NCBI GenBank assembly: GCA_938009755.1
Contig: CALLIL010000080.1
Coordinates: forward strand, 1-59,321
DNA from: an uncultured Marinomonas sp.
GTDB taxonomy: Bacteria; Pseudomonadota; Gammaproteobacteria; Pseudomonadales; Marinomonadaceae
Length of the DNA: 59,321 bases
Direction: 5' to 3'
The notes under the pieces were generated by a model. That model saw only the letters and a list, made by a program, of their open reading frames with translations. It was not told the origin of the DNA and ran no database searches. How positions within the stretch are numbered: the first letter of the stretch is position 1; every line of letters begins with the position of its first letter. This document shows, one piece after another, positions 1,474-52,301 of the stretch. The position numbers and the translations under genes were made by a program.

Positions 1474-3765
1474 TTAATAGCGAATAACAGAAAATTCCAC
1501 ACGATCACTGGTGCCGGTTTGGTCGGTTAAAGTCAGTTGATAGTGACCTCCGGCAAGGTTCTCTAGCATGATTTTTCGTGTTGAGTCTTTCAATAAAGTA
1601 CCGTTCAAAAACCAATAGAACGGCGCTTCGCCACCTTGGGAATAGACGGTAAAGTCTGCTTTTTGTCCTTCAGGAATTTGAAATGCGTCTTGGTTGTCTA
1701 GCCCTTGGATCTTAACGCTTGATTGGCTCACCAGTGATCCAATGACCTCACAGCGAGGGTCCCAATCAGGTATTTGCGAATCTCGCCTTTTTTCAATCGG
1801 CAGCCAATTATCGAGCGGCGCAGGCCAAACCGTGACGCTTTGTCTGGTCGATGGAATACCACAATCAATATTCACTCGTAGTTTTGTGTCGTTGGCTTGC
1901 CAATATTGAAACTGAGATTGATTCGAATATTGGTCAAATTCCACGGTGCTGTACCATGTTTTTGGGGTTGTGCTGTCGAGAATGTAAGCCTGTTTTTCGT
2001 CTTCACATTCTTCGTTGGTTTGATCCCCTTGTGGCCAACAAATGGCCTCTTGAGTGACGGTTTGAGGTTGTTCTGGATCTGGTCTTTGATCATCAAGTAA
2101 TTGATAAATACGGTTTAATAAAGGCACTGCGGTTACTTGTCCATAATGCCCTGGCATTGGTGTGCCATCTGGCCGTCCAACCCAAACGCCCAGAGTATAA
2201 TGCTGACTCACGCCGATCGCCCATGCATCACGAAAGCCGTAACTGGTGCCCGTTTTCACCGCCAAACCAGGAATACCAGCTGGGTTTTCTAATAGCACTT
2301 TACGAATAATCCAAGCAGCGCCTTCACTTAATATCGGCTTTTCTTGTGTGTTATCCGACTCACTAAAACGCAATTTCTGAGCTTTTCCCGCGTTTCCTAA
2401 ACTGCTATAGCCGTAGATTAAATCCTCTAAGCTCGAACCGACACCGCCCAAAGCAATAGACAAATTTGGCCGTGCACCAGCAGGAAGCTGAAGGTCAATA
2501 TTGGCTTGCTTCAATTGCAAGAATAAATACACAGGCTTTAGTCGTTCTAGCACTTGAACAGCGGGAATATTAAGACTTTTTTGCAAGGCATCCGCCATAG
2601 ATACTGGCCCACTGAAGCCGCCGTTAAAATTATCTGGTTGGTAATCGCTAAAGCGCAATGGCACATCCATAAGCAAGCTTTCACTGTGGATCAAGCCTTC
2701 ATCAAGGGCCATACCATAAATAAAAGGTTTCAGTGTGGAGCCCGGTGAGCGGATGGCAGACACCATGTCGACATACGCAAAACGAGAGGGATCAGCAAAA
2801 TCGGCCGACCCAGCATACACTCGCACTTTGCCTGTTTCATGCTCTACAACCAAGGCAGCAGCAGAAACCTGCTCGCCAATGTTTCGAACATAATTACGGA
2901 TCAGCTCTTCGGTTTTTCGTTGCCATTGGGAATGAATAAAGGTCTTAATTTGTGGACTGTCATTGTGATTAACAAGGCGGCGCGCCAATAAAGGTGCATG
3001 TTGATAATATTGATTGGAAATGATGTAAATGTCTTCTAACAAGGCGTCGTCAAGGCGCTCTTGCGTCCATTTTCCCATTTCCACCAAACGATGCATGACT
3101 TTATCTCGAGCGATTTTTGCACGCTCTGGGTGTCGATTCGGTCGATAGTAACTCGGCGCTTGAGGCAGTACTGCCAGTAACGCTGCCTGCGCATCCGTCA
3201 GTTGTTTTACAGAATGTCCGAAATAGCCAATCGATGCCGTTTGCACACCTTCATAGGTTCCGCCGAATGGCGCATGATTAAGATAGTAAGTCAGAATGTC
3301 GTCTTTGCTGTAATGCCACTCTAGCTGAAAAGCTCGAACGATCTCTTTCCATTTCCCCCAAAGAGTTCGAGGCTCTGGATAGCGAATTCGGGCTACTTGC
3401 ATGGTCAGTGTTGAGCCACCCGAAATAATGTCACCTGTGTACAGCCATTGCCATGCAGCACGCGCCAAGGCAAAAAAGTTCACACCAGGATGTTGGTAAA
3501 AATATTGATCTTCGTAGGTTATAAGGGCTTCGAGATAATTTGGAGAGACATCTTCTAAAGTAACAGGAAAACGCCAAACGCCACTGTCGTCAGCAAAATT
3601 GCGGAGAATAGTAGCGTCTTCAGCCAACACGGTTTGACTAAGAGAACGAGATTCTAAATCGACTGGCTTCAACCAGTCGTATAGAAAAACACAAGACAAA
3701 AAGACCATTCCGGCGGCGATAATACCTGTTAACCACCGGAATCGTCCCTGTAACAAATGTCTCAA
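1474..3765 (-). CDS. pbpC: Penicillin-binding protein 1C (transglycosylase/transpeptidase)
   Basis: 763 aa; N-terminal TM, GT51 motif EDQYFYQHPGVN..GGSTLTMQVAR, transpeptidase SPGSTLKPFIYG and KTGTSYGFRDAW; followed (overlapping) by A2M gene as in other proteobacteria. Confidence 0.93.
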   Translation of the reverse strand: MRHLLQGRFRWLTGIIAAGMVFLSCVFLYDWLKPVDLESRSLSQTVLAEDATILRNFADDSGVWRFPVTLEDVSPNYLEALITYEDQYFYQHPGVNFFALARAAWQWLYTGDIISGGSTLTMQVARIRYPEPRTLWGKWKEIVRAFQLEWHYSKDDILTYYLNHAPFGGTYEGVQTASIGYFGHSVKQLTDAQAALLAVLPQAPSYYRPNRHPERAKIARDKVMHRLVEMGKWTQERLDDALLEDIYIISNQYYQHAPLLARRLVNHNDSPQIKTFIHSQWQRKTEELIRNYVRNIGEQVSAAALVVEHETGKVRVYAGSADFADPSRFAYVDMVSAIRSPGSTLKPFIYGMALDEGLIHSESLLMDVPLRFSDYQPDNFNGGFSGPVSMADALQKSLNIPAVQVLERLKPVYLFLQLKQANIDLQLPAGARPNLSIALGGVGSSLEDLIYGYSSLGNAGKAQKLRFSESDNTQEKPILSEGAAWIIRKVLLENPAGIPGLAVKTGTSYGFRDAWAIGVSQHYTLGVWVGRPDGTPMPGHYGQVTAVPLLNRIYQLLDDQRPDPEQPQTVTQEAICWPQGDQTNEECEDEKQAYILDSTTPKTWYSTVEFDQYSNQSQFQYWQANDTKLRVNIDCGIPSTRQSVTVWPAPLDNWLPIEKRRDSQIPDWDPRCEVIGSLVSQSSVKIQGLDNQDAFQIPEGQKADFTVYSQGGEAPFYWFLNGTLLKDSTRKIMLENLAGGHYQLTLTDQTGTSDRVEFSVIRY

Positions 3766-6700
3766 CGAGGAAGAATCTCTATTTTCCCAGGTGCCGTACC
3801 AATTGAACGATAGTCAGGACGATACATGTCTTCCACGAAAGGCGGCGCCACTTGATATGTTCCCGGTGTCACGGCTCGTACAAGGTAGTACAGCTGAGTC
3901 GGTTTGTAATAATCAACGCTGATGGCTGCCACATAGCGGTCATCGCGATATTCTTGATACAAGACCTTGCGTTCACGGAAGTAACGTCCCAGAGACTCAC
4001 CTTCAACTCTAATGCTGTCTAAATCAATACTCGCATTGCTCAGGTTTTGGTTTTCTAATTCCAAGCCTGCAGGTAAAAGATCAACAACAAGGGCTTCTGG
4101 TACACGCAAATTGTCTACCGAGCTGATGTTCAGACCGACAACCATCAGTTCACCACTGTTTAATGAGCTTGGCGTGATGCGGTTACCTTGAAGATCGTAA
4201 TAACGACGTTCAATGTGAAGGCCTTCGCTGTATGCCGTTGGTGCTGTTTTTGGTGCGCCTTGATACTGTAAGTTCACATACAGTTTTTGATCTTCAGCCT
4301 GTACACCTTTTAAACTCTTCAATGCTTCACCATCAAAAACAGAGTTAAACGCATGGTCTTTTTCGACCACTTGTTCTCCAGAAGGCAGCTGCAATAGCGC
4401 ACTCCACTCACGGCCTGATTTAGAATATTGGCGAGCCACTTTCGCTAAGGCTATACGCTCTTGTGTACTCATCCAACGTTTATTACGCATGCTTTCAACC
4501 ATGTCTTCTACAAGGTTGCCTTCGTCCAAACCTTGCTCTAAAGCAACAGCAAGACTCAGTGCAGCATCACGCATGGTTGAGCCATAATCACGGTAATAAT
4601 GGTAGCCTGAGCGCTTAATATTCAGTGCTTTGGTATTGGCTACTTTGGCACGTTTTACATCGTTATGATTCGATAGTGCCGCCGCCAAATGCATCCAAGC
4701 TAAACCAGACTCTTGCAGTGCAACATCTTTCGTTGGCAACCATCCTCCTAAAGGATTATCGCCTTTCGCGGTTTCTATTGCCTGATCGTAAAGTCGGCGT
4801 AACTGAGACAAATTCCCTTCTCCTGCTTTCGATAAAACAAAAGCAGCGTACGCACGGTAAGCGAAATGGTAATAATCTGAGCTGTCTGTCCAAATATCGG
4901 TCTTGGATTGGTCACGCACATAGAAACTCAGACGATTAATGGCTTCTTTATACATACGACTATCTACTTCGATACCCTGCTTGCGAGCATCAACTAATAA
5001 CTCTGTCGCATAAACCGTACCCCAACGTACTTCCGAACTACTAGAATCCCAGTAACCAAAACCACCGCTACTCAATTGCTTAGATTTCAGACGATTGATG
5101 CCAACGGCAATTTGTTTGCGACGGAAGCTTTCAGTATAAGGTTCGTTGAATCGTGCTTCTATGCTGTCTGCAATGCCTAACTGCGTGACCATCGTTCCAT
5201 CCATTAACAACCATGGGTAAGTCGAACTGGACGTTTGCTCCAAGCAGCCGTAAGGGTAATGTAATAGATATTCAAGATGACTGCGGAAATTGATCGCCGG
5301 ACGGTTCGAAATAGTCAGCTGAGCTTGTACTGTGTTGTCTCGTAAGCTACTGACATCAACGTTTGGCACCCAAGTCTCATCTGGATTCACCACGGCTCTC
5401 ACTTGCTGAGTCGACCAAGGATAAGGACTGCGCACACCAAGACGCCAAGTGCGGCTAATATTAATGTCTGTACCATTACTGGCAATCAGTTGAATCTCAC
5501 CTTGACCTTCGTCGTCCGTGGCCGTGATAGGCACAGTTAGTACGGATTTCTCTTTGTCTTTTAGATCAAATTTTTGTACCACACCATCGCTTGTCAATGA
5601 GCCGTTTACTTTGACACTGACATCAAAAGATTGCTCGGCATCAGAAAGGTTATGAAGGTCAATAGTCACTTGGCTTTCATCGCCCATCGAAAGGAAACGT
5701 GGCATTGATATTTGAGTTACTAATTTATCCGCAACGATCATGTCACTGCTCGTGCTGCCGTAACTCTTGTCTCCGTAGACAACCACCATCCACTCTAACT
5801 TGCCGTTGAACGTTGGCAGCTCGAAACTCACTTCCGCTTGACCGTCTACAAGCTGAACTGGCTCACTAAAGTAAGACAAAATTTGCACATCGGTTTTTGG
5901 TTTTTCGCCACCTCGGCTCAGTTCGTCATCAGAGTCACTAAAAGCATCACCACCAAAGCGTTGACGTAGGGATTCATAGCCTACATTGTTGATGATCTTT
6001 CCATAGATATCGTAATAAGCACCGACAAAACGACGTGGCGCGTAAAAGAACACTTCTGGTTTAGGACGCTTGTAATTGGTGATATTCAATACGCCTTTAT
6101 CGACCAACGCGACCGTGGCATACAAAGGCTGATTCCCCAATTCGGCCAAATTGGTCACATTAATCTGAGCACTGACAACCTTATTAGGCTGCACTTTTTC
6201 TGGCGTGGTAATTTCCACTTTTGCGACCGCGTCTGCTCGCTTAATTGGTAACGAGACAAAACCTAACGCCCGTTTCGGTGCCACTTCCGACACTTGATCT
6301 GCAGGCGTTAACACCATCGCCGTCACATACAAATCATGACGATCCCATTGTTCATCAATATCAATGTTGATCTCATTTGAGCCTTTTTCAATTTTCTGGC
6401 GCATAGAGTATTGAACGCCTTCCGACGACTCAATGTTGATCAAACCTTCTCCATTAGCAGGGCTTAATAAACGCAGCTTTGCTGTTTCGCCCGGAACATA
6501 ACTGTCTCGATCCATCACCATCTGGATCATATCTGGCTTCAAATTCGCAGCGGTTTGGTTGCCCCAACTCCACTTAGTTCTAAAATGCATCACACTTTTC
6601 GCACCAGACTCGGACGTTACCTCTAATGAGTAAGCGCCCCACTCAACAGGAAGATCAATCAAAACCGGTTCACCATGCGTTGTCACATTACTGCTGCCAA

Positions 6701-8666
6701 CAACGTATCGGTTACTGGTGTATTTCCAATACCAACCACGAGATTCATCAAACTCCCAGAAATACTCACGATGATTTCGCAACATGCGAACACTGAATTT
6801 GTCTTCAACAGGGCTGCCTTTTTCGTCCACACTCAACAGTTTGAATTGGATGTTTTGATTATTATCTGGAGAGCCTTTGAACTGAGGTTGAATGCCCACA
6901 AACTTTTCGAAACCAGGCAACTGTATGACATTTTGAGTGCGCGTAATCGGACGCCCACCACTTTCATAGACACTCGCGCTGATACTGTATTTTAGCGGCA
7001 CAGAAGCGGACCAACGATTAGGAACTTTCAATTCCCCTCGGCCTTTTTCATCTAATTTAATGCTAGACAAGGTGCGTGTTCGACCAGAAATCTTTTGGCT
7101 TGAATCACCAAAGTAATACCCTTTTAACTCAGGAAAAGGCGTCGTCACTGGCGACACAGTCACAACACCATCGGCTTTGTTGCCAGAGGCTGGCGCACCG
7201 TACAAATAATCCGCTTGAATCGGCACAGAGAATGTACGTCTAGGGACATAGCGTGTCTTATTACGGTCGCCATCATAAAATGACATCGTCAAGGTTTCAG
7301 GTAAAAACTCTTCCACCTTGAAATGGTAGGTTCTTTTCACTTCATCCGCGTAACTGACTTCTAAACGCCAGCTGCCTGTTGGCGCGTTATCATCAAGGGC
7401 AAAGCTTGTCTGATAAAGATCCGTTGCACCTGATTGCCACACAAAGCTTCTTTTTCTTTCGCCACGAGCATCGTAAAGCTTTGCGTCTAAAGGAATATTG
7501 CGTATTTTTTGACCGTCGTGATCTCGTAGAAGTAAATTAATAAAAACTTCTTCGCCTGGACGATACAGGTCACGCGGCCCATACATGAACATCTGATAAT
7601 CTTGATGCAGCGTTGGCACATTTGGAAGATCAGACAGATCTAATGCACCTTGATCCAATTTCAAGAAACTGACTTGCTTCCCTTTTTGTGCAACCACAAT
7701 TTTAGGCAAGTCGTTCGTCGACAACAGATAGCTGCCATTTTCGCCTACTTTTGCAGTGTCTTCGCGTTCGGAAAATTTATCCGTGCTAGGCCAAAACAAA
7801 CGCAAATCAACATCTGCAATAGGATCACCCGTTGCAATCGAATTGGTGTAGAGCATTAATGAGTTTTTGTATTTACGAGCATGCAGACCGATGTCCGTAA
7901 TGGTAAAAAAGGTTGTATCGTAGTAGTAATCGTATTGACCCGCTTTACGAATGACTGCCACATAAACACCCGCCTCCCCCTTATCCAACATTGGATCTAG
8001 GTTTAGGTTATACGTTGTTCGTTGATTCGTTCTGGCATCGTTTTCATAACGAGCGGAGTGAATAAGGTCTGCAAAACCCTTTAATTCATTAATTTTATAA
8101 TAGGATTTGCGGCCTTGATAATACGCGCTGTCGATAAAATCAAATAAGCGGTCATCTCGTACTCGGAAGACTTCCAGATCCACTTCTTTTTGATTAACAA
8201 CCGTGACCGGAATGCCACCCTGAATATCCCCAACTAGAAAGTTCCCGCTGCTTGCAAAAGACGCGCTAGGAACCAGCTTTCGCGTTGTCACCGTGCGAGT
8301 AAAACTGTGGGTATTATTTTCACTGTCTTTTTCGGACAACTCATAGCCATCCGCCGATATAATCGGTCTTTCAACCTTGATCTTATATTCAGTGCTTGGC
8401 TCGACAAAAGGAAGCACCCATTGACGACCGCCATTTTGTGACAGCCAAATATTGCCATTATCTGGATACGGTGTGACCGATATATATCGACTTAGATCGG
8501 TATCAGGTTCAATAGGATTGGAAAATCGAACAACCAATGCGGGTGCATTATCTTCTGTGGTTTCCCTTACATCAGAGATATAGAAATCGGCGGCTTGAAG
8601 CACACCAGATACCATAAATAAAAAACTGACTAGGACGAAATAAAAAACTGATTGCACTGCACGCAT
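3762..8666 (-). CDS. Bacterial alpha-2-macroglobulin family protein (YfhM-like)
   Basis: 1634 aa, signal peptide, MG-domain features (DLYRPGEEVFINLLLRD), thioester motif YPYGCLEQTSSSTYPWLL (CLEQ codons at about 5235-5246); 4-bp overlap with pbpC. Confidence 0.93.
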   Translation of the reverse strand: MRAVQSVFYFVLVSFLFMVSGVLQAADFYISDVRETTEDNAPALVVRFSNPIEPDTDLSRYISVTPYPDNGNIWLSQNGGRQWVLPFVEPSTEYKIKVERPIISADGYELSEKDSENNTHSFTRTVTTRKLVPSASFASSGNFLVGDIQGGIPVTVVNQKEVDLEVFRVRDDRLFDFIDSAYYQGRKSYYKINELKGFADLIHSARYENDARTNQRTTYNLNLDPMLDKGEAGVYVAVIRKAGQYDYYYDTTFFTITDIGLHARKYKNSLMLYTNSIATGDPIADVDLRLFWPSTDKFSEREDTAKVGENGSYLLSTNDLPKIVVAQKGKQVSFLKLDQGALDLSDLPNVPTLHQDYQMFMYGPRDLYRPGEEVFINLLLRDHDGQKIRNIPLDAKLYDARGERKRSFVWQSGATDLYQTSFALDDNAPTGSWRLEVSYADEVKRTYHFKVEEFLPETLTMSFYDGDRNKTRYVPRRTFSVPIQADYLYGAPASGNKADGVVTVSPVTTPFPELKGYYFGDSSQKISGRTRTLSSIKLDEKGRGELKVPNRWSASVPLKYSISASVYESGGRPITRTQNVIQLPGFEKFVGIQPQFKGSPDNNQNIQFKLLSVDEKGSPVEDKFSVRMLRNHREYFWEFDESRGWYWKYTSNRYVVGSSNVTTHGEPVLIDLPVEWGAYSLEVTSESGAKSVMHFRTKWSWGNQTAANLKPDMIQMVMDRDSYVPGETAKLRLLSPANGEGLINIESSEGVQYSMRQKIEKGSNEINIDIDEQWDRHDLYVTAMVLTPADQVSEVAPKRALGFVSLPIKRADAVAKVEITTPEKVQPNKVVSAQINVTNLAELGNQPLYATVALVDKGVLNITNYKRPKPEVFFYAPRRFVGAYYDIYGKIINNVGYESLRQRFGGDAFSDSDDELSRGGEKPKTDVQILSYFSEPVQLVDGQAEVSFELPTFNGKLEWMVVVYGDKSYGSTSSDMIVADKLVTQISMPRFLSMGDESQVTIDLHNLSDAEQSFDVSVKVNGSLTSDGVVQKFDLKDKEKSVLTVPITATDDEGQGEIQLIASNGTDINISRTWRLGVRSPYPWSTQQVRAVVNPDETWVPNVDVSSLRDNTVQAQLTISNRPAINFRSHLEYLLHYPYGCLEQTSSSTYPWLLMDGTMVTQLGIADSIEARFNEPYTESFRRKQIAVGINRLKSKQLSSGGFGYWDSSSSEVRWGTVYATELLVDARKQGIEVDSRMYKEAINRLSFYVRDQSKTDIWTDSSDYYHFAYRAYAAFVLSKAGEGNLSQLRRLYDQAIETAKGDNPLGGWLPTKDVALQESGLAWMHLAAALSNHNDVKRAKVANTKALNIKRSGYHYYRDYGSTMRDAALSLAVALEQGLDEGNLVEDMVESMRNKRWMSTQERIALAKVARQYSKSGREWSALLQLPSGEQVVEKDHAFNSVFDGEALKSLKGVQAEDQKLYVNLQYQGAPKTAPTAYSEGLHIERRYYDLQGNRITPSSLNSGELMVVGLNISSVDNLRVPEALVVDLLPAGLELENQNLSNASIDLDSIRVEGESLGRYFRERKVLYQEYRDDRYVAAISVDYYKPTQLYYLVRAVTPGTYQVAPPFVEDMYRPDYRSIGTAPGKIEILPR

Positions 8667-8805: not shown

Positions 8806-10398
8806 TCACACCAGCCATAACACCGCGCCAACAACCCCAGCAATCACGCCATAGATAATCATTGGAATCACGGTTTTCTTAATGATGTAACCTTCTTGAT
8901 TAACGATGCCAAGAATTGTAGAAACAGCGATAATGTTGTTAATGCACACCATATTGCCCATGGCAGAACCAACAGATTGTAGAGCCAATACCAAAGTCAC
9001 AGGCAAACCGACTTGATCCGCAATGGAATATTGAATACCGCCAAAAGTAACGTTAGACACAGTTGCAGAGCCTGAGAAGAAACTCCCAATAGCACCAAGA
9101 TAAGACGCAAAATACAACCAGCTGTCACCTGTTACTTTGGCAAATGTATTGGCGATTAAAAAGATAGGAGACTGATCGCCGCCAAGCATCATAAAGTTCA
9201 CCATAATCAAAGCACCAGCCAAGGAAATCAGCGGTAATTTGATGCGGCTGCCAGTGTCGACAAAAGCTTCTTTGACTTTCTCTTTTGACATTTTCAGCAA
9301 TGGAATGGAAATTAAAACCACCAGCAAGAATGGAATCAACGCAGGCACATACAAGGTTTTATAAGACCAACCAACAGAAGTACCGAATATGTTTTGCACA
9401 GACAAAATCAACGCCTGACTGACGCTAAAGTAGGCTTCGCCTAGATCAAACCCAAACCAAACAGTCGCATCATTGAGTAACGCCTTAATACCAAGCTCAC
9501 TAATACGAGTCACAATTAAAATTACGATCAATAATAGTAATGGTAAAAGTGCGACAAAGAGTTTACGGAATTCGACCTTTTCACCTCTTTCCGCTTCGTG
9601 GTCCGCCGCTTTTAAACCTATATTTTTCTTAGCTAAAAGAATGCTCAGCATCAAGCCAATCGCACCGCCGATCAAAGCAGGAAACTCGTAGTTCACTTGT
9701 GCCAACAAGAAATAAGGCAAGGTACAAGACAAAATGCTCAATAAAATGTACACAATATTTTGACGAATTTGGTGCCAGCTTACGACAAAACTCAATGCCA
9801 GAACTGGAATCACTAAGCCCGCAACAAGGTTGATCAAGGCGGTTTGCGTGGCCACATCAAGCAACTGTTCGTGACTGAGGTTCAATGTATCCAAGCCGAA
9901 CCAAATTGGTGTGCCTACCGCACCGAATGACACAGGCACAGAATTCATAATCAAAGCAAGTATCGCGACTTTAAGTGGCTTAAACCCTAAACCCACTAAC
10001 ATTGGTGCGGCAATCGCAGCAGGGGTACCAAAACCTGACGCACCTTCCAACATGAAAGCAAACGCCCAACCAATAATCATCAACTGTGCCACGCCATTGG
10101 TGCTGATAGATTCTAACCAACGACCAATGACACTTTCGGCGCCTGAAAACGCCATCACACGATTCAGTAAAATCGCGCCCGCGACAATGGAGATCGGTGT
10201 CGCAACCGACAACACCCCAGATATCGTGTTGGCAGTAAGCAAGGTAAAGTCGGCTTGGAAATAAAATAATTGAATCAGGCCGACTAACAATGCACTGATC
10301 GGCAAGGCAATATGAGAAGGCACCGCTTTCTTTTTTGTCATTAGCCAGATAAGCAGAAGAATCGGAAAGGCTGAAATTACTGCGTTCATTAATTCCAT
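8806..10398 (-). CDS. lldP: L-lactate permease (LctP family)
   Basis: 530 aa polytopic membrane protein; GASGFGTPAAIAAPMLVGLGFKPLKVA and FFSGSATVSNVTFGGIQ motifs of LctP. Confidence 0.9.
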   Translation of the reverse strand: MELMNAVISAFPILLLIWLMTKKKAVPSHIALPISALLVGLIQLFYFQADFTLLTANTISGVLSVATPISIVAGAILLNRVMAFSGAESVIGRWLESISTNGVAQLMIIGWAFAFMLEGASGFGTPAAIAAPMLVGLGFKPLKVAILALIMNSVPVSFGAVGTPIWFGLDTLNLSHEQLLDVATQTALINLVAGLVIPVLALSFVVSWHQIRQNIVYILLSILSCTLPYFLLAQVNYEFPALIGGAIGLMLSILLAKKNIGLKAADHEAERGEKVEFRKLFVALLPLLLLIVILIVTRISELGIKALLNDATVWFGFDLGEAYFSVSQALILSVQNIFGTSVGWSYKTLYVPALIPFLLVVLISIPLLKMSKEKVKEAFVDTGSRIKLPLISLAGALIMVNFMMLGGDQSPIFLIANTFAKVTGDSWLYFASYLGAIGSFFSGSATVSNVTFGGIQYSIADQVGLPVTLVLALQSVGSAMGNMVCINNIIAVSTILGIVNQEGYIIKKTVIPMIIYGVIAGVVGAVLWLV

Positions 10399-10540: not shown

Positions 10541-12352
10541 TTATAAAGAATGAATGTCTAACACACCGTCTTCAAAAGACCAATTCGGATCGTCATAGTT
10601 TTCACCTAACCAAGTGGAGGTTAAGGTTTGATACTCAGGTTGTTGGCGATAGTTTTGGATGAAATCATTGACCGCTTGCAATAACGCTCGGTTACTTTCT
10701 TTAAACTCGACAGCCACTGAATAAAACCATAAATCCTCACAAAGACTGCCGGGTAATATCTCTATTTGACCTTGCCATGGGCTACCTTCGCCATAACAAG
10801 CCCAATGATAAATAGGCAAATCCACCGCAAATGCGTCGACGATATTTTTGGTTAAACAATCGTGTATTTGAGTCTGATCGTTATAAGCTAACAGATTCGC
10901 AAGTTGCACCTTGCCACCCGGTTTGTCTCGGTTGCTTTCCCAACGCATCCCCAAATCTTCTAAGATTTGCAGCGCCGCAGGATCATTAATACAACCTAAA
11001 ACTTTGCCATCTAAATCTTGAATACTGTGAATCTGTTCATCGCCCTGACGTTTGGCCAAGACATAAGGAAGAAACACATAAGGATCGGAAAACATAACGT
11101 AGTCATTTGGCATCGGCGGCATAGCACTCAATACAATATCCGCCTCCACATCACCTTGGTTTGCGCCGGTTTCTAAAAGCTGTAAACAACGGTCCCAAGG
11201 GTGTTCAACAAACTGGCATTTCACTCCTAAGCTATCGGCAAATGCTCTCGCCATATCCGCATCAAACCCACGTAATGGTTCGTTTGGTTTCACTCGATAT
11301 GACACGCCCACAAACGAAGGTTCGATCGCAATGCGAATTTCCCCTCGCTGCTTGATCTCTTCCAAACGATCAAAATCCACATTAAGGTGAAGTCGCTCTT
11401 GATCCGCTACCGCAACCAAAGGATCTTGCTCAGAAGATGGCGCATTAAGGCTCATGTCTATGCTATCTAATAATTGATGGCTCCATTCACTCTTGCCGCC
11501 AATTTGTTCACAAGCACTGTGGCTGAGACCAACGGTTGCTTCCACTACATTATTATTGCTATCAATTTCGTTCAGCGAGCCTTCTATGTCTGCTAATAAG
11601 CGCTGGATACTGTCTAGTGATTGCTGAACCTGATTTGAAAGCGAGCTAATTTGCTGGTCCGTGCCCGTTAGAATGACCTCAAGCTGCTCTCCAACCTGTG
11701 TGAGATCCATCTGCACGTAAGCTTGTTGCGTGCTTTCCTGTGTTCGCATTGCCAAATCTCGAATTTCTCCCGCGACGACAGCAAAGCCACGTCCGTATTC
11801 TCCGGCTTGAGCCGCCTCAATCGCCGCGTTAATAGACAATAACTGTACCGTTTTACCGATATCTTCAATCGATTTAACCACCGAAATGGCATCTTTGGAT
11901 CGCTCATTAATCACTTTTTGCAGATCCATCAACTGCTCTGTAAATAACTGACTGGTTTCTCCTAAGCTCTGCTCTATTTCAGTACGTAATTGCGTTGCAT
12001 TGTCCCCACTATGTTGCAAAGATACCTGTGTTTTACCAACAAAGCTGTTTTGTTCTGTTGCTCTAGCTTGTACTTCACCCAATGAACTTTGCAATAACTC
12101 TTGCGCCTGTAAACTGTGTCTCTGCAAAGCCTTCAAGCGCTCAATTAGGGCCGTTAAAGTTGCACTATCAGATAACTTTGGCTCCTCATGCGCAATGCCT
12201 CTTATTAAAGCCAAACGAAGAGGTTCAGGTATGTCGTTTGCTCCCAGTGTCAGAGCTTGCTCAATGTCGCCTTCACATAACACATCCTTCCAGTGTGGGC
12301 TTCTGTCTACACGTTGATATTGAGCTTCTTTCCAACTCGACAAAAAGGCCAT
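10541..12352 (-). CDS. Soluble methyl-accepting-type chemoreceptor fused to a C-terminal SBP_bac_3-like solute-binding domain
   Basis: 603 aa; MCP hairpin-tip region [44 protein letters not shown] then LEEIKQRGEIRIAIEPSFVGVSYRV..LRGFDADMARAFADSLGVKCQFV..W; no hydrophobic TM stretch or signal peptide visible. Confidence 0.85.
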   Translation of the reverse strand: MAFLSSWKEAQYQRVDRSPHWKDVLCEGDIEQALTLGANDIPEPLRLALIRGIAHEEPKLSDSATLTALIERLKALQRHSLQAQELLQSSLGEVQARATEQNSFVGKTQVSLQHSGDNATQLRTEIEQSLGETSQLFTEQLMDLQKVINERSKDAISVVKSIEDIGKTVQLLSINAAIEAAQAGEYGRGFAVVAGEIRDLAMRTQESTQQAYVQMDLTQVGEQLEVILTGTDQQISSLSNQVQQSLDSIQRLLADIEGSLNEIDSNNNVVEATVGLSHSACEQIGGKSEWSHQLLDSIDMSLNAPSSEQDPLVAVADQERLHLNVDFDRLEEIKQRGEIRIAIEPSFVGVSYRVKPNEPLRGFDADMARAFADSLGVKCQFVEHPWDRCLQLLETGANQGDVEADIVLSAMPPMPNDYVMFSDPYVFLPYVLAKRQGDEQIHSIQDLDGKVLGCINDPAALQILEDLGMRWESNRDKPGGKVQLANLLAYNDQTQIHDCLTKNIVDAFAVDLPIYHWACYGEGSPWQGQIEILPGSLCEDLWFYSVAVEFKESNRALLQAVNDFIQNYRQQPEYQTLTSTWLGENYDDPNWSFEDGVLDIHSL

Positions 12353-12530
12353 ATTCCCTCCTAAAGTTTTACTGATAGTAAAAATTAATACGCTATAGGA
12401 AATTTATAAGCAAAAAACAGACCTAAAACTCACAAAATCTCACAAAAGTTCACAAAAAAAGAGGCGACCTAATCACAGGCCACCTCTTGAAGTACTTTAT
12501 TTCATTTTCAATACTATAGAGGAAAGGTAA

Positions 12531-21567: not shown

Positions 21568-23712
21568 ATGAGTTTGAAAAGTAGTTTGATGTCACTTTCA
21601 CCACAAGAACGCCGATGGTTACCTTGGCTTGGAAGCAATGGTCGATTCGCCCTTTTCTGGTCATGTTTTTTAAACAAAAGCACCTATCAACATGTTGAGA
21701 AAACCTTTGAAGGGATAGCAAATACAAGAGTAAAATTATTGACCAACTGGGTCGATAACCAATGGTCTCAACTTAGCGTTTTATCAGACGCAGTAACGAC
21801 CTCATTCCCCGCCGTTAAATTGGAATCACTAGAAGAGCGCTTCCATATCGTCGCAGATGTTTCTGAGTATTTTGTCATTGATACAGAAGGAAGAGTCCTG
21901 AATTCCACTAGAAAAGAGCGTATTGGTAAAGTAGACCTACAGCCTAAAGCCGTTCAGCAAGGCTTAAACGACCTTTTTCTTCACGGCCCTTATGTTGACG
22001 AAAATACACGCCTTATTGGTGCCAGCAGTTCAAAGTTCCATGACGCGGTGACGCTCATGTTTTATTTACCAATAAAACAAAACGGCGTAAGTGTTGGTGC
22101 CGTCTGTGCTCGCGTACCAAACGACGTTTTGGGCGACCTAATTCAACGAGAAGCAGGGCATATTTATAAAGAGTCTGGTGACAACTATTTGTTTATGGTC
22201 GAGTCTTCATTCGATAAAAGCATTCTTCCAGGCACCGCACTTTCCCGTTCACGCTTTGAAGACAATACCTTTAGCCATGGGGAAAACCTTAAGGGTGGCG
22301 TTTCTACAAATTGGGGAACGGTAAAGGTTCAACAGCATACGGAATTTGAAATTAGATTTACCGATCCTGCCACAAAAGAGCTACACCCTGGCGTAAGAGA
22401 AACCATTAGAAAAGGCAACAATCTATTTGTGACCTATCCTGGCTACTCAGACTACCGACACATTCCTGTCATCGGCAAAGGCATCACTTTTCAGCTCAAA
22501 GGCAGCCCTGACAAATGGGGGATGATGTGTGAAGGCGACCTCGAAGAAGTTTATCGTCGTCGATCTATCAACTTGAAGTTAACAAAAAGTTATTTATTGG
22601 CGTCCAGTATTCCATTACTGCTTAGTGCGACACTGCAAGCGTACAGTCATTTATCCGCGACTATAATTAGCATTAGCGCTTTTGCCGCATTAGGCATTGC
22701 AGGTGTTTTATTCAATCAGTTAAGCACGAAAAAAATCAGCCGTAGCATGAACCAAATGACAGATGTTATTCAAACCATTGCCGAGGGCGAAGGCAACTTA
22801 AGGCAGCGCCTTGATGACAAAATGGCGAACGATGAAACCGGCGACATGGGGCGTTGGATGAACAGCTTCATCGACAACCTAGACAACACAATCGGTGAAG
22901 TCATTTCTGCCAGTAACAATGTGAAGCACTCAAACGACTTCATGGCGAGTACGAATGAAGAAGCAAAACAAGTTTCCCATTACCTTGAAACGTCTGTTGA
23001 AAACATGCTCAACGCGTTCCAGCTGCAAGTGAACGAAGTACAAAGCGCTTCACAAACGGCAGACTCGTTAAAACAATCAATGGATCAGGTTTCAAAAGAA
23101 ACTTTGATTCGCTTAGAAGAAGCCAAAACAGGTACCCAAGAAATTCGAGACGTCGTACGAACCACTGCGGAATCTGTAAAGTCTCTTGATAAGAAAACAA
23201 ACGAAATTGCAGGCATCATTACGACCATTTCAGACATCACAGACCAAACCAATTTATTGGCACTCAACGCAGCGATTGAAGCCGCGAGAGCGGGTGATCA
23301 TGGCAGAGGATTTTCCGTTGTTGCAGATGAAGTCCGAAGCTTGGCGGCAAAAACATCATTGGCCGCTGAAGAAATACAAAGCATGCTCGAAGGCATTCAA
23401 AAAGAAACTCGTAATGCCGTGAGTTTCATGGAGAAAGGCGCAGAGAACGTTGATAAAAACCTACAAGCTAATCAGCAAACAAATTCTGGAGACAGCAAGC
23501 TGTACGCTTTAGTAGAACAAATGTTCGAAGCCATATTACGTCTCAATGAAAGCAACAAAGCCAACACAAATACGGCGCAAGAAATGGGTGCGGCAACCGA
23601 ACAAATGAGACGTTCTGTTGCGGCATTGCAAACTCGCTCTTCCCGCGTTGGACTGTCTGCACTCAAGCTAAATACACTGGTTGGTCAATTCCAAGTCACC
23701 AACAAATCTTAG
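21568..23712 (+). CDS. Methyl-accepting chemotaxis protein, N-terminal cache-like sensor then TM pair, HAMP and MCP signalling domain
   Basis: Signalling tip [47 protein letters not shown]; hydrophobic pair [18 protein letters not shown] / [19 protein letters not shown] about residues 335-390. Confidence 0.9.
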
Positions 23713-24935: not shown

Positions 24936-26912
24936 TTAAAGGATTTTAAATTGGCTCAAGAGTTGTTTTTGACGAGAAGCTAGCTGTGACAAACCTTCAC
25001 TGCTCTGAGCACTTTCATCCGACCCTTTCGCGGCTTCTTCAGAGGTTTCTGAGATCTCTACGATATTTTGTCGAATTTCTTGCGCGACAGCAGATTGCTC
25101 TTCAGCCGCGGTTGCAATCTGTGTACTCAAATCACGAATTTCCGCCATACTTAGTTGTAACTCACTTAACGATGATCCTACCGTTCTGGCTTCTTCCACA
25201 CTGTCGCCAGCGCTCGCACAACTTTCATTCATACTAACCACTGTTTTCGTGACACCTTGTTGCAATTTCACGATGACATTTTGGATTTCTTCTGTTGAAC
25301 TGTGCGTTCGTGTTGCAAGAGTACGAACTTCATCTGCAACCACAGCAAATCCTCGACCTTGCTCGCCTGCACGCGCTGCTTCAATCGCCGCATTGAGTGC
25401 CAACAAGTTGGTTTGTTCAGCAATTTCCTGAATTACATCCAAAATACTATCAATATTTTTCGAATGCTCATCTAGTTGATTTACCACCACCGCAGATTCT
25501 TCAATCTGCGTTAGAAGGCGTTCAATCTTCTGGATATTCGCGTCCATTTGAGCACGGTTTTCACCCGCTCTTTGATCGACTGATTGAATTTGATGCAAAA
25601 TAATTTCTGAACTCTGTGCCACCTGCTCAACCGTTGACGCCATTTCCGTCATTGAAGAAGCCACTTCGGTTGTACGTGCATTTTGCGCGCTCATTAAGCG
25701 TTTAGAGTTGTTCGCTAAACTCACATTGTTTGTTGCAGATTCTGAGACTTTTGTCGCAGACTGATCGATATCTTTCATGACGTCTTGAAGTTTAGATACC
25801 AATTGATTAACCCAACGAGACAATTCACCAAATTCATCCTTCGTTTTAACCATACTGCGTTGGGTAAAATCACCATCAGAAATTTTGCCCAATACATTCA
25901 TTACTTCTTTTAATGGAATACGAATACTTCGACTAACCCATAACGCCACTAACACAGCGATAGCGACAGATACGATCAGAACAAGACTGATAATAAAAGT
26001 CGATAATGACGCGGCTTCCGTTGCTTCATTTTTCGCACTTTCACTCATTTTAGAAGTCTCAGAAAGCAGTATTTCAACTTGGGCATTGATGATTTTCATG
26101 CTATCCGATAAATCTTTAGCCAACGCTTCAGATTCTTGCGCTAAGCGGACATTTTCATATCGCTTTGCAATGACACCTTCATCAGACAAAATAGCTTGAT
26201 CTAATTCCTCCACAAGCCCGTCTATATTTCCATCATTGACATAAGATTGTTTACTATGCAATCCCACTAAAGTTGCCTTCATGGTGTCTCGTAGCAATTG
26301 CATGTCATCTAGGTCTTGCAAATCAAAATAATCAATAACGGAAAGCTGAAGACTCTGAACACGGCTTTGCATATAAGAAGCGGAGAACTTAATCTCAAAG
26401 GTTTCACCGTCTTCTTCTAATAAGGCGAGATCTTCAGACGTAAAAATAACCGTGTCCTTCAGATCCATTTTCTGCCTTGCAATCTCTGATTGCATGTCCA
26501 ACATTTTTTTGTGGTTAAAGAAAGCCATATCCGTATAACGGAAAAATTCGTTGGCTTCGGTACCAATATGTTTTAGAGCAGAATTCATTTCATCATAGCT
26601 CTCAAGATACCCTTCTAGCGCATTAGATACGTCAAGAAAACCTTCTTTGTAACCTTGAAAACTTTTAGACAAGCCTTCCAATGATTCTGGCGACTTGCTT
26701 AGTAAATATTGTAAAACGGCTGAGTTTGCTAAGCTCAAATTTTCTTTAAGCTCATTACTTGTAGAGGCCACATCTGCTACATTACCTGTCACAATGTTGA
26801 GCCTATCTTCTATTTTACTGATTCCCCAAAAACCCGACGCAGCAATCGTCAATAGCAGCAGTAACAAGATACTAAAGCCGCATAAGATTCTCTGAATAAC
26901 AGACAATGACAT
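24936..26912 (-). CDS. Methyl-accepting chemotaxis protein (two-TM, periplasmic helical sensor, HAMP)
   Basis: N-terminal TM, TM2 [76 protein letters not shown]. Confidence 0.94.
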
Positions 26913-41984: not shown

Positions 41985-44570
41985 TTACGGTTTACGTCGT
42001 CGCTGCATAGCAACCACTACAACTAAAAGTAATAAACTTGGTATATAAACAAACAATTTAGATGGTTGAGAATTCGACACCTCTAACCCTTCGATTACTT
42101 GAAAGGCTTCAAACCCAGCTTCATAGGCATCACTTCCAATATCAACACTATCTACTTCGATCACATCGCTACTTATATAAAGATTTAAACCAGCTTGCTG
42201 CATAATCACTTCAAGGTTTCCAGACTCACGAGCAATCAGCATGTGTATTGATCTTTCCAGCTCGCCTGAATAATTTTGTTCAGACACATGAACTCTTAAT
42301 GGCATCCCTTCAGTAACCGCACCACCTTCTTGTAAATAATCAGACATCGCCATATAACGATAAGGCTCTACAACTTTATTAATCCAAAAATCAGGTCGGA
42401 AAATACTAAACGCAATCAACAAAAGTAATACGGTTTCCCACTTCTTACTTTTAACAATAAAGTAACCTTGGGTTGCTGCCGTAAAGATCAACATAGCTAA
42501 CGTTGCGATAACAAAAATGAAGACACCTTGGATAAAGGTCACATCAATCAACAACAGGTCAGAATTGAAAATAAATAAGAAAGGTAAAATGGCGGTACGT
42601 AACGCATACTTGAAGGCGATGATACCTGTTGGAATCGGCTTCCCTCCAGACACGGCCGCCGCGGCAAAAGACGCTAAACCGACTGGGGGCGTGACATCCG
42701 CCATCAAGCCAAAATAGAAAACAAATAAATGAACAGCGATCAGAGGGACAACTAACCCATTCGCCGCGCCCACTTCAACAATCACTGTTGCCATCAATGA
42801 AGAGACCACAATGTAGTTTGCGGTCGTCGGTAAGCCCATACCTAGGATCATGCACAATATAGCTACCAAAATAAGCATTAAGGTAATATTGCCAAAAGAT
42901 AACACTTCTACTACATCGGCTAAAACGGCCCCTACACTGGTTTGCGATACGACACCAACAATCACACCAGCGGTTGCTGTGGCAATTGATATACTCGCCA
43001 TATTTCGAGCACCAGACACCATTCCGTCGAACAAATCCTTAACACCTTGGAAAAGTGACGCTCTTGCTTCTCCTCTAAATACACCATCAAGATAAGGTTT
43101 TGTCAGTATTATAAAGATTGTTAACAATGCTGCCCAAAATGCACTTAGCCCAGGACTCAGGCGCTCAACCATTAAACACCACACCAAAACCAAAACAGGT
43201 AATAAATAGTACATACCTGAAGCAAATATTTCACCCGGAGACGGTAGAGCTTCTAAGTTCTGCTCTGCAGCATCATTAAGTTTTGGAGATTTCGACGCAT
43301 ATAGAAGCAATAACACATAACTCAAAAGGACAAGTGCCGTAATCACATAACCAGACGCATCACCTGCCACTAATTTGATCCATCCCAACCCATAATAAAC
43401 GATAGCACTGAGGAAGCTGAAACTTAAAAAGCCAAAAATGATTGAGGCCAAACTTCGAACAAAGTTAGCGCGCGACACAGAGCGCGGCAAACCTTGCATA
43501 TTTGCCTTTAAAGCTTCGAGATGAACAATGTAAACCAAGCCAATATAAGAAATAAGAGCAGGTAAAAAAGCGTGTTTAATAACATCTAAATAGCTAATAC
43601 CTACATATTCCACCATCAAGAACGCCGCGGCCCCCATAACAGGAGGCATAATCTGACCATTAACAGACGATGCAACTTCCACTGCCCCTGCTTTCTCAGA
43701 TGAAAAACCAACCTTTTTCATCATAGGAATAGTAAAAGTTCCTGTAGTGACCACATTGGCAATAGACGAGCCCGATATCAAGCCTGTAAGCCCAGATGCA
43801 ACGACAGCAGCCTTCGCTGGACCACCTTTAAAATGCCCTAAGCAAGAAAAAGCGAGTTGTATAAAGTAGTTTCCGGCTCCCGCTTTATCGAGTAAAGAAC
43901 CAAACAAAACAAATAAGAAAACAAAATCTGTTGAGACGCCAAGCGCAATACCGAAAACGCCTTCCGTCGTAATCCATTGATGATTAACAACCTCATAAAG
44001 GTTAAACCCTTTATGAGCGATCATTTCTGGCATGTAATTACCAAAAAAATTATAAAGTAAAAAAACAATCGCTATTAGTGGAAGGGTAATACCAAGACTT
44101 CTACGTGCCGCCTCGAACAATAAAGGTATGCCAATACAAGCAACTATAACGTCTTGTAAAATAGGAGCACCCACTCGAACGGCAATATTCTGGTACTCAA
44201 TCAGGTAGTAAGACGCACATAGACTTGCAATAAGAGCAATGCACCAATCAATAATAGGTATTTTTGTAACAGCAGAACGACTGCTAAAAGGGAAACTCAA
44301 AAAAACGAGAAAAATAGCAAACATCAAGTGAATGGACCTTGCCTGATTACTATTCCAACGCAGTAAATCAGAGTCCATTAGATAAGGAAAAGGTGAGGCA
44401 ATCCATAATTGAAAGCAAGCCCATACAAACGCGACACTAAGAAGAACTTTTAACTGTAAGCCTGATGGTTTACGCCCCCCCATATCTGTAGACGAAACTA
44501 ACTCTTCCAGATCTCTTGTGTCACTATTCTTTATTGCCTTGCTCATAACAATACTCTCATTCAATATCAT
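41985..44570 (-). CDS. TRAP transporter fused small/large permease (TAXI type) with C-terminal DUF3394-like region
   Basis: 861 aa; GLISGSSIANVVTTGTFTIPMMKKVGFSSEKAGAVEVASSVNGQIMPPVMGAAAFLMVEYVGI; GMGLPTTANYIVVSSL; likely start MSKAIKNSD, a few codons downstream of the ORF start. Confidence 0.93.
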   Translation of the reverse strand: MILNESIVMSKAIKNSDTRDLEELVSSTDMGGRKPSGLQLKVLLSVAFVWACFQLWIASPFPYLMDSDLLRWNSNQARSIHLMFAIFLVFLSFPFSSRSAVTKIPIIDWCIALIASLCASYYLIEYQNIAVRVGAPILQDVIVACIGIPLLFEAARRSLGITLPLIAIVFLLYNFFGNYMPEMIAHKGFNLYEVVNHQWITTEGVFGIALGVSTDFVFLFVLFGSLLDKAGAGNYFIQLAFSCLGHFKGGPAKAAVVASGLTGLISGSSIANVVTTGTFTIPMMKKVGFSSEKAGAVEVASSVNGQIMPPVMGAAAFLMVEYVGISYLDVIKHAFLPALISYIGLVYIVHLEALKANMQGLPRSVSRANFVRSLASIIFGFLSFSFLSAIVYYGLGWIKLVAGDASGYVITALVLLSYVLLLLYASKSPKLNDAAEQNLEALPSPGEIFASGMYYLLPVLVLVWCLMVERLSPGLSAFWAALLTIFIILTKPYLDGVFRGEARASLFQGVKDLFDGMVSGARNMASISIATATAGVIVGVVSQTSVGAVLADVVEVLSFGNITLMLILVAILCMILGMGLPTTANYIVVSSLMATVIVEVGAANGLVVPLIAVHLFVFYFGLMADVTPPVGLASFAAAAVSGGKPIPTGIIAFKYALRTAILPFLFIFNSDLLLIDVTFIQGVFIFVIATLAMLIFTAATQGYFIVKSKKWETVLLLLIAFSIFRPDFWINKVVEPYRYMAMSDYLQEGGAVTEGMPLRVHVSEQNYSGELERSIHMLIARESGNLEVIMQQAGLNLYISSDVIEVDSVDIGSDAYEAGFEAFQVIEGLEVSNSQPSKLFVYIPSLLLLVVVVAMQRRRKP

Positions 44571-49626: not shown

Positions 49627-49718
49627 CACGATTTCATCGATAAGTTATCGCTAATAAATGCCTGTCAGCAACTCTGCTGCCGGGCATTTATTTTTTTATT
49701 TTGCCCTTGGAAAAACTC

Positions 49719-52301
49719 ATGTCTGAAAACAAACTAGACAACACACAATTAAACGACATAATCGGCGATGCCGATGTCGGTGGTCGCAACCCACAAGACC
49801 CTTTTGGCAAAGCCGTGCTCTGGTATTTACCGCTTGTATGGGCGCTGTTTCAACTATGGATCGCATCACCACTCCCTTATATGATTGGTGTTGGTGTATT
49901 AAATGACACACAAACACGCTCAATCCATCTTGGTTTTGCTGTCCTTTTGGCTTTTCTTGCTTTTCCCGCCTTTAAATCGAGTCCTCGTCATTATATTCGT
50001 AAAGCCACTTGGTTAATCGCCATCGTTGCCGCCGTTGCAGCCTCCTATTTATGGTGGGATTACAGAGGCATTGCAAACCGTACTGGCGCACCCAATATGA
50101 CAGACATTATTATCGCTGGTGCAGGCATTGTTTTGTTATTGGAAGCCGCACGACGTTCATTGGGCTTCCCGTTAATGGGCGTTGCGCTCTTTTTCCTCGC
50201 CTATGTCTTCTTTGGCTCTTGGGGCGGCTTGCCTGACATTGTCCAATGGAAAGGCGCTTCTTTTGAAAAAGCCATGAGCCACATGTGGCTTACTAGTGAA
50301 GGCGTATTCGGGGTTGCATTAGGCGTTTCATCTGGCTTTGTTTTCTTATTTGTTTTGTTTGGCTCTCTACTAAACCAAGCAGGTGCCGGAAACTACTTTT
50401 TACAACTTGCTTTTGCCGCTCTCGGCCATTTACGTGGAGGCCCAGCAAAAGCTGCCGTTATTGCGTCTGCTGCAACAGGTCTGGTGTCAGGGTCGTCTAT
50501 TGCAAACGTGGTTACAACAGGCACATTTACCATTCCATTAATGAAGAAAGTCGGTTTCCCTGCAACAAAAGCAGGGGCAATTGAAGTGTCTTCTTCTATC
50601 AATGGCGTATTGACTCCGCCTGTTATGGGTGCCGTTGCTTTCTTGATGACCGAGTATGTTGGAATTTCATACGTTGAAGTAGTGAAAACAGCCATTATTC
50701 CAGCCGCAATTTCCTATGTTGCTTTAGTGTACATAGTGCACCTTGAAGCACTTAAAATGGGCATGAAAGCGACCTCTACAACGCATCCTGTAAAAATCAT
50801 TCTCTCCGCAATATTGATTATCGCCTTGTCGATTATTGTCTTTGGTGGCGCTCTGTATTTAGCAGGTTTGGCCGTTGGCGCTTTGGGAGCTGCTGTTGGA
50901 GGCGCCTCACTCTGGATCATTTTGGCAGTAATGCTAGCAGGGTACGTCGCGGCCGTGAAATACGCCGCAAAAGCACCAGATTTGGACATGAGCTTAGACG
51001 CTATCCAGAATTTACCACCAACCAAAGAAATCTTCAAAACAGGCATTCACTATTTGATGCCAATCATGCTGCTGATGTACCTGTTAATGGTTGAACGTAA
51101 ATCACCTGGCTTGTCCGCTTTTTGGTCAACCATGTTTATGCTGTTTATCTTGCTGACTCAAAACCCTTTAAAAGCCTACTTCCGAGGGGAAAAAGACATC
51201 ATGGGACATGTCAAAGCAGGCTTAGCAGACATTGCGGAAGGCATGATTGCTGGCTCTCGGAACATGATTGGTCTTGCTGCGGCCATGGGCGTAGCAGGCA
51301 TTATCGTAGGAGCCGTCACACTAACAGGTATTGGCCAAGTCATGGCAGAATTCGTTGAATTCTTGTCTGGTGGCAACCTATTAGCCATGCTGTTCTTCGT
51401 TGCGTTAATTTCCATCATTCTTGGAATGGGTTTACCGACAACAGCAAACTACATTGTCGTTTCTTCTTTGATGGCCGGTGTAGTTGTTGAATTAGGCGCT
51501 CAAGGTGGCTTGATTGTGCCTTTAGTAGCCGTTCACATGTTTGTCTTCTACTTCGGCATCATGGCTGATGTTACGCCACCTGTTGGCCTAGCCAGCTTTG
51601 CTGCGGCTGCGATTTCTAAAGGCGATCCGCTTAAAACAGGCTTTCAAGCCTTCTTTTATTCGATCCGCACCGCACTCTTGCCCTTCCTATTCATCTTCAA
51701 TACCGATTTACTATTGATTGATGTAGGTCCAGTACAAGCGGTGTTTGTTTTTATCTTTGCACTCATTGCTATGTTGCTTTTCGCTGCTGGCACGATGAAC
51801 TTTTTTGTCATCAAGTCCAAACTCTGGGAAAGCGCCACTCTGCTTCTTGCCGCTTTTATCTTGTTCCAGCCGGGCTATTTCTTAAATAAGTTCGCACCTG
51901 AATTTGAAACGCGCTCAGGCAGTGCCATTATTGAAATGGCGGAACAAGCAAAAGCAAACACCTCACTCCGTGTTCGTTTAAAAGGTGAGGATTTATATGG
52001 CGACGTTATTGACGCACGTTACCTTCTCCCGATGGGTTCAATAGGTAAAGACGGTGAAACAAGGCTATTAGACTCTGCTGGTATTGAATTACGAAATGAA
52101 GAAGGCACCTACTTTGTCGACAACATCAGTTTTGGTGGAGCGGCAGAACAATTAGGCATCGACTTTGATTGGGAAGTGGTTGAACTTGAAGTGGCGACAG
52201 ATCGCCCACCAAAAGAGCTATTTTTCATTCCTGCGCTCTTAATGGTTCTTGCCGTCATTGCCTTACAAGTTCGTCGTAGACGCAAACTTGAAGCCGCTTA
52301 G
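49719..52301 (+). CDS. TRAP transporter fused permease (TAXI type) with C-terminal DUF3394-like region
   Basis: GLVSGSSIANVVTTGTFTIPLMKKVGFPATKAGAIEVSSSINGVLTPPVMGAVAFLMTEYVGI; paralogue of 41985-44570; likely start MSENKLDN at 49719. Confidence 0.95.
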   Translation: MSENKLDNTQLNDIIGDADVGGRNPQDPFGKAVLWYLPLVWALFQLWIASPLPYMIGVGVLNDTQTRSIHLGFAVLLAFLAFPAFKSSPRHYIRKATWLIAIVAAVAASYLWWDYRGIANRTGAPNMTDIIIAGAGIVLLLEAARRSLGFPLMGVALFFLAYVFFGSWGGLPDIVQWKGASFEKAMSHMWLTSEGVFGVALGVSSGFVFLFVLFGSLLNQAGAGNYFLQLAFAALGHLRGGPAKAAVIASAATGLVSGSSIANVVTTGTFTIPLMKKVGFPATKAGAIEVSSSINGVLTPPVMGAVAFLMTEYVGISYVEVVKTAIIPAAISYVALVYIVHLEALKMGMKATSTTHPVKIILSAILIIALSIIVFGGALYLAGLAVGALGAAVGGASLWIILAVMLAGYVAAVKYAAKAPDLDMSLDAIQNLPPTKEIFKTGIHYLMPIMLLMYLLMVERKSPGLSAFWSTMFMLFILLTQNPLKAYFRGEKDIMGHVKAGLADIAEGMIAGSRNMIGLAAAMGVAGIIVGAVTLTGIGQVMAEFVEFLSGGNLLAMLFFVALISIILGMGLPTTANYIVVSSLMAGVVVELGAQGGLIVPLVAVHMFVFYFGIMADVTPPVGLASFAAAAISKGDPLKTGFQAFFYSIRTALLPFLFIFNTDLLLIDVGPVQAVFVFIFALIAMLLFAAGTMNFFVIKSKLWESATLLLAAFILFQPGYFLNKFAPEFETRSGSAIIEMAEQAKANTSLRVRLKGEDLYGDVIDARYLLPMGSIGKDGETRLLDSAGIELRNEEGTYFVDNISFGGAAEQLGIDFDWEVVELEVATDRPPKELFFIPALLMVLAVIALQVRRRRKLEAA

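Follow-up and report, generated by a model that had tools for sequence, protein, structure and literature searches.

A conserved family of soluble chemoreceptors with a C-terminal solute-binding domain, with one member beside a che gene cluster

The window, a stretch of 59,321 nucleotides from an uncultured Marinomonas sp., encodes a fusion of a chemoreceptor signalling hairpin with a C-terminal solute-binding domain; the initial annotation had described it as an apparently soluble chemoreceptor, and this description now extends to a conserved family, in which the gene of one member adjoins a che gene cluster. The fusion protein is probably a real sensor of something inside the cell. We read it, with a probability of roughly 0.6, as a cytoplasmic metabolite receptor that feeds the chemotaxis kinase; we infer that it sits in the cytoplasm, binds a ligand, couples to the kinase and affects behaviour. 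In the proposed mechanism, the SBP_bac_3 clamshell behind the MCP hairpin would stay in the cytoplasm and close on a small intracellular molecule; closure would, through the linker, alter the packing of the coiled-coil hairpin, and this change would turn the CheA/CheW complex at the tip up or down. A more specific version, with a captured Venus-flytrap domain, a remodelled amino-acid anchor and chemotaxis that follows an intracellular metabolite other than an ordinary free amino acid, falls a little short of even odds in our estimate. Points against the main reading are the replacement of the residue equivalent to Tsr Arg388 by Gln, the absent QTN motif, the single relative with a che neighbourhood and the sporadic occurrence in Marinomonas.

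If the reading is true, a binding domain of the uptake type has become an internal gauge in bacteria, connected directly to the chemotaxis kinase, and metabolism-dependent taxis would be linked to a defined, crystallisable ligand-binding domain. The isolated SBP domain is well suited to ligand screening. An SBP_bac_3 annotation by itself does not equal 'periplasmic transport component'.

Gene structure and predicted domain arrangement

The fusion gene (10541..12352, minus strand) is a single frame of 603 codons, with its ATG at 12352 and its stop at 10541; the coordinates of the initial annotation are exact and the strand, absent there, is minus. A ribosome-binding site AGGAGG (12357..12362, minus strand) sits 5-10 nucleotides 5' of the ATG. 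There is no upstream in-frame ATG, GTG or TTG able to add a signal peptide, since an in-frame stop lies 17 codons before the ATG. In the gap that separates the fusion gene from the GST-like gene upstream, a pattern match alone points to a terminator-like hairpin (12459..12488, minus strand).

Both domains are recovered by Pfam above the curated cut-offs, and in the order first proposed, within one continuous open reading frame: MCPsignal at residues 140-268 (E 3.6e-22; 79.5 bits versus a cut-off of 34.6) and SBP_bac_3 at residues 339-584 (E 2.1e-20). The C-terminal domain has no Pfam match to CZB. The strict consensus of CheR/CheB methylation sites is absent from the fusion protein, but several of the genome's membrane MCPs lack it too, and it does not discriminate between them.

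The absence of a signal peptide and of any stretch of transmembrane length, also proposed before, is borne out by hydropathy: the highest Kyte-Doolittle mean of any 19 residues is 1.03, lower than the shuffled-sequence median (1.55), while the maxima of membrane MCPs of the same genome lie mostly at 1.9-3.3. By the same measure, no member of the family that we examined has a transmembrane segment or signal peptide. The solute-binding half is thus probably cytoplasmic, judging from the absence of export and membrane signals.

AlphaFold, run on the whole protein with 35 sequences in the alignment, predicts a small helical N-terminal segment, an antiparallel hairpin, a linker and a two-lobed SBP fold (mean pLDDT 82, pTM 0.65), which agrees with the domain arrangement that the initial annotation had put up for checking. 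On the minus strand, the segments are the poorly conserved N-terminal helical part with no Pfam domain above cut-off (residues 1-60; 12173..12352), the descending arm (residues 61-182; 11807..12172), the tip or kinase-contact region (residues 160-205; 11738..11875), the ascending arm (residues 188-303, with helices 188-215 and 218-303; 11444..11791), a linker that is variable in the alignment (residues 304-328; 11369..11443) and the SBP_bac_3 domain without signal peptide, assigned by both Pfam and AlphaFold (residues 329-583; 10604..11368). Folded alone, the SBP domain is predicted with confidence, at a pLDDT of 94 and a pTM of 0.89. The model has TM scores of 0.80-0.83 to closed, liganded amino-acid SBPs (5t0w, 8eyz, 1wdn) versus 0.54-0.69 to open or apo SBPs (4kr5, 8vi8, 3zsf, 4prs): the domain, as predicted, is nearer to the closed, ligand-bound state than to the open one.

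Distribution and conservation of the family

For the family search in GTDB genomes, the alignment was built from the SBP half alone; this succeeded, whereas a scan of GTDB contigs with the single fusion protein as query gave no confirmed match. We found 46 fusion loci in Alpha-, Beta- and Gammaproteobacteria, two of them degenerate. Hosts are Pseudomonas, Stutzerimonas, Pokkaliibacter, Marinobacterium, Thalassolituus, Methylophaga, Methyloversatilis, Magnetospirillum, Pararhodospirillum, Thalassospira, Hyphomicrobium, Granulosicoccus and Marinomonas. All loci except two copies from Granulosicoccus metagenome-assembled genomes (MAGs) are a single frame of about 600 codons in which the MCP part precedes the SBP domain. 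A survey of the architecture across genomes, suggested earlier as a check, finds it recurring in three proteobacterial classes. The two Granulosicoccus copies (L067:5100-6909 and L070:5200-6900) have in-frame stops, the second also a frameshift, and are likely pseudogenes. Thalassospira genomes carry two tandem MCP-SBP copies (L047:4789-8904; L053:5104-8904; also L050, L052, L054, L056, L060, L063 and L066), possibly paralogues with different ligands or roles.

Evenly drawn samples searched with a broader alignment had the family in 7 of 399 Pseudomonadota genomes, about 2%, and in 8 of 295 genomes of the order, the window's own genome included; a narrower search of an even sample of 369 gammaproteobacterial genomes returned the window's own copy only. 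There was no match in the plasmid collection. All matches in the sampled genomes have E values of 1e-118 or lower and all are fused, with nothing from there to 1e-20; this SBP subfamily was thus seen only in fusion with an MCP, and the fusion proteins form, by their sequences, a discrete family.

Within Marinomonas the gene is sporadic (7 of 50 genomes), and the receptor is therefore dispensable. Two Marinomonas lineages can be distinguished, one grouping with Pokkaliibacter and Pseudomonas and the other with Thalassospira, and one genome has both; the pattern suggests horizontal transfer or repeated loss.

Across 35 aligned members, mean column identity is highest at the tip (0.65) and in the SBP half (0.59), lower in the arms (0.28-0.29) and lowest at the N-terminus (0.19), and 14 of the 16 invariant residues of the MCP half fall in the tip. 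Conservation is thus concentrated where contacts with the kinase complex and with the ligand would be expected.

Binding pocket, hairpin tip and chemotaxis genes

Amino-acid-binding SBP_bac_3 proteins such as GlnBP and HisJ anchor the carboxylate of their ligand by an arginine in a G-x-T-x-x-x-x-R loop. Profile alignments to PDB sequences place an A-x-P-P motif of the fusion protein (Pro412-Pro413; 11114..11119, minus strand) where this loop (G-x-T...ER) should be, and the arginine (the column of GlnBP R75/HisJ R77) is found in none of the 35 aligned family members. The ligand should therefore not be read as 'amino acid', which had been suggested for the domain together with organic acids; what the pocket holds is probably something other than a free alpha-amino acid bound in the standard manner. 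Glu344, Phe347, Trp386 and Asp511, which align to the pocket, are invariant or nearly so across the three classes; Asp511 aligns with the aspartate that binds the alpha-amino group in GlnBP and HisJ. The family has an insert of its own around residues 470-486 (RWxxN..KPGG). A pocket that is acidic and aromatic and has no such arginine would suit an amine, a polyamine or a betaine-like compound, but this is speculation.

Loss of the ligand-anchoring arginine in 35 of 35 members could also mean that the SBP half no longer binds any small molecule and has become a module for protein interaction or localisation, the receptor then reporting on a partner such as a transporter, an enzyme or a polar factor. 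The family has no conserved transporter or enzyme neighbour, and polar localisation of TlpD depends on its C-terminal part (PMC13001251); both would suit such a module. If binding had been lost, however, the four pocket residues would be expected to relax, and they have not; the predicted clamshell is closed, as in ligand-bound SBPs. We consider a non-binding module unlikely.

Metabolite sensing by the receptor would reach behaviour through the hairpin tip, which includes QLLSINAAIEAAQ. The tip reads GKTVQLLSINAAIEAAQAGE, exactly the sequence that the initial annotation had called non-canonical, and it is the sole such tip among the 20 MCPs of the genome; the other 19 have tips of the common type (one with QINLLALNA, one with QTKLLALNA). 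The fusion protein also has the weakest MCPsignal score of the 20. In Tsr, the QTN motif, Asn381, Glu385, Arg388, Gly390 and Glu402 make the trimer and CheA/CheW contacts. Gln182 of the fusion protein (codon 11807..11809, minus strand) aligns with Arg388, a column in which the 35 family members have Arg (19), His (14) or Gln (2), and the QTN motif is absent. The equivalents of Asn381, Ala382, Glu385, Gly390, Gly395, Phe396, Val399 and Glu402 are invariant across the family.

Two further MCPs are encoded in the window itself (21568-23712, plus strand; 24936-26912, minus strand); they are of the membrane type, with dCache-like and 4HB-like sensor regions, HAMP and canonical tips. A second MCP without a transmembrane-like segment, of 361 amino acids and with a near-canonical tip, is encoded on contig C9 of the same genome (L082:950-2035). 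Its last 130 or so residues, behind the MCP domain, have no Pfam match, and the protein may be a further soluble receptor of the C-terminal-sensor type; a CZB identity of this part, guessed by eye, was not confirmed by Pfam.

One family member is encoded within reach of a kinase gene. In genome G840, 216 bp separate the MCP-SBP gene from the che cluster downstream of it, which is on the same strand and reads cheA-cheW-membrane mcp-cheR-cheD-cheB-response regulator (L099:515-10691); this is the only che-linked copy seen. The tip of this member (...NAKIEGAHAGESGKGF...) also has no Arg388. All other family copies are orphan genes with unrelated neighbours, occasionally another MCP or a GGDEF-EAL gene, and apart from the G840 cluster no neighbour is conserved across genera among the family loci; no ABC transporter is found among the identified neighbours. 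CheA is encoded in all 25 host genomes tested, about half of which have a single match. In the 78% of the window's genome that is assembled we found one CheA, one CheW and one CheV, the roles being assigned by how long each frame with the CheW-like domain is; with one CheA, the receptor would have to share its kinase with the other 19. Coupling to this common kinase is suggested by the single CheA together with the gene order in G840.

The initial annotation had suggested that coupling to CheA/CheW may differ or be lost. The first part probably stands, as Arg388 is replaced by Gln; the second does not fit with a tip better conserved than any other part of the MCP half, and loss is unlikely because the che-adjacent G840 member has no Arg388 either. 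The kinase contact, as far as it can be read from the alignment, is probably altered rather than lost. The MCP half could nevertheless be decoupled from CheA altogether and act as a scaffold or regulator outside chemotaxis or as a dominant-negative filler of the array: the non-canonical tip with its low MCPsignal score, the orphan state of most family copies and the GGDEF-EAL genes that adjoin the fusion gene in two lineages all point in this direction. We regard decoupling as quite improbable in view of the same tip conservation, the invariant equivalents of Asn381, Glu385, Gly390, Gly395, Phe396 and Glu402, and the G840 member.

The GGDEF-EAL genes in question are located beside the receptor gene in Marinomonas colpomeniae (L036:6892-8856) and near it in a Marinobacterium-type genome (L104:8734-9255). 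An L-lactate permease gene does adjoin the fusion gene downstream, as first noted (8806..10398, minus strand; Pfam E 6.6e-133), but we attach no meaning to it and give it as context only, not as part of the system: the permease is common to M. colpomeniae only, where a GGDEF-EAL gene on the other strand intervenes. Lactate as a ligand was considered on the basis of this neighbour and rejected, as the permease is not conserved and other hosts have other neighbours.

Elsewhere in the window, a gene for a bacterial alpha-2-macroglobulin (1474-8666, minus strand) overlaps the adjoining gene for a PBP1C-like transglycosylase/transpeptidase, a familiar gene pairing. The window also has two large DctM-DUF3394 fusions, membrane components of TRAP transporters (41985-44570, minus strand; 49701-52301, plus strand).

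The best PDB sequence matches of the SBP half are reconstructed ancestors of cyclohexadienyl dehydratase, an enzyme that evolved from the same SBP lineage, and the SBP half might for this reason be an enzyme itself; this is very improbable, as it is the ancestral amino-acid-binding form that is matched, the similarity to known dehydratases is weaker and nothing suggests a reason for fusing an enzyme to a receptor. An artefact (assembly chimera, frameshift or pseudogene) is conceivable in a draft genome of 122 contigs and 78% completeness, given the stops or frameshift in the two Granulosicoccus copies, but is already refuted for this copy by its orthologue and by dozens of intact relatives. 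The M. colpomeniae protein is 75% identical to the fusion protein from end to end, and the flanking genes are kept on the upstream side. Between the two genes pS is saturated (0.78) and pN is low (0.14 overall; hairpin 0.13, SBP half 0.105), which indicates strong purifying selection on both halves. The assembly join or frameshift between the halves that the initial annotation had allowed for is thereby ruled out.

Comparison with known systems

Cytosolic chemoreceptors make up 23.3% of chemoreceptors in one survey, which counts at least 17 types of C-terminal ligand-binding domain behind the signalling domain and calls this subfamily poorly characterised (PMC7390727). According to a survey of SBPs, their Pfam domains also act as sensors in signalling proteins, cytosolic as well as membrane-bound (PMC9602780). 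Both the topology and the use of an SBP as sensor are thus already known in kind, while the specific combination of MCP and SBP_bac_3 was not described in the literature that we searched, which is thin on subscription journals; prior mention is possible. Vibrio cholerae MotW was considered as a related system and rejected as unrelated.

The closest precedent in structure is TlpD of Helicobacter pylori, a soluble chemoreceptor with a C-terminal sensor, in which the coiled coil is straddled by the CZB domains, and changes there that are linked to the ligand reach the kinase interface (PMC12871147). TlpD and other CZB receptors are (PMC12871147, PMC13001251, PMC7390727) like the fusion protein in having no transmembrane segment, a hairpin followed by the sensor and cytoplasmic sensing. 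They differ in the sensor, which is a zinc-binding four-helix domain in CZB receptors and a two-lobed SBP_bac_3 domain here, in the N-terminus, which here is a poorly conserved helical region of 60 residues and not a PAS domain, and in the tip.

In the amino-acid SBPs TTC0807, AncCDT-1 and GlnBP (PF00497) the fold is alike (TM 0.80-0.83) at about 20% identity; unlike these, the SBP half of the fusion protein has no signal peptide, is fused to an MCP and has no carboxylate-binding arginine. It also differs from typical SBP_bac_3 proteins in having neither an export signal nor an identified partner ABC transporter nearby.

Cytoplasmic arrays with a double baseplate are recognised by their sandwich form in electron cryotomography. 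Receptors without a membrane anchor form hexagonal, CheA/CheW-based arrays in the cytoplasm of Rhodobacter sphaeroides (TlpT/TlpC) and Vibrio cholerae (PMC3964821). The fusion protein likewise has no predicted anchor; a separate che system of the cytoplasmic-cluster type was not seen in the window's genome, which has only the one CheA. Membrane receptors that either contact SBPs in the periplasm (Tar and Tsr) or have SBP-type periplasmic domains of their own (the BvgS family) are alike in that the same sensor superfamily controls a signalling protein. There, however, the SBP works in the periplasm and its signal has to pass through the membrane, whereas in the fusion protein both halves are predicted to be cytoplasmic and the order of sensor and signalling domain is reversed.
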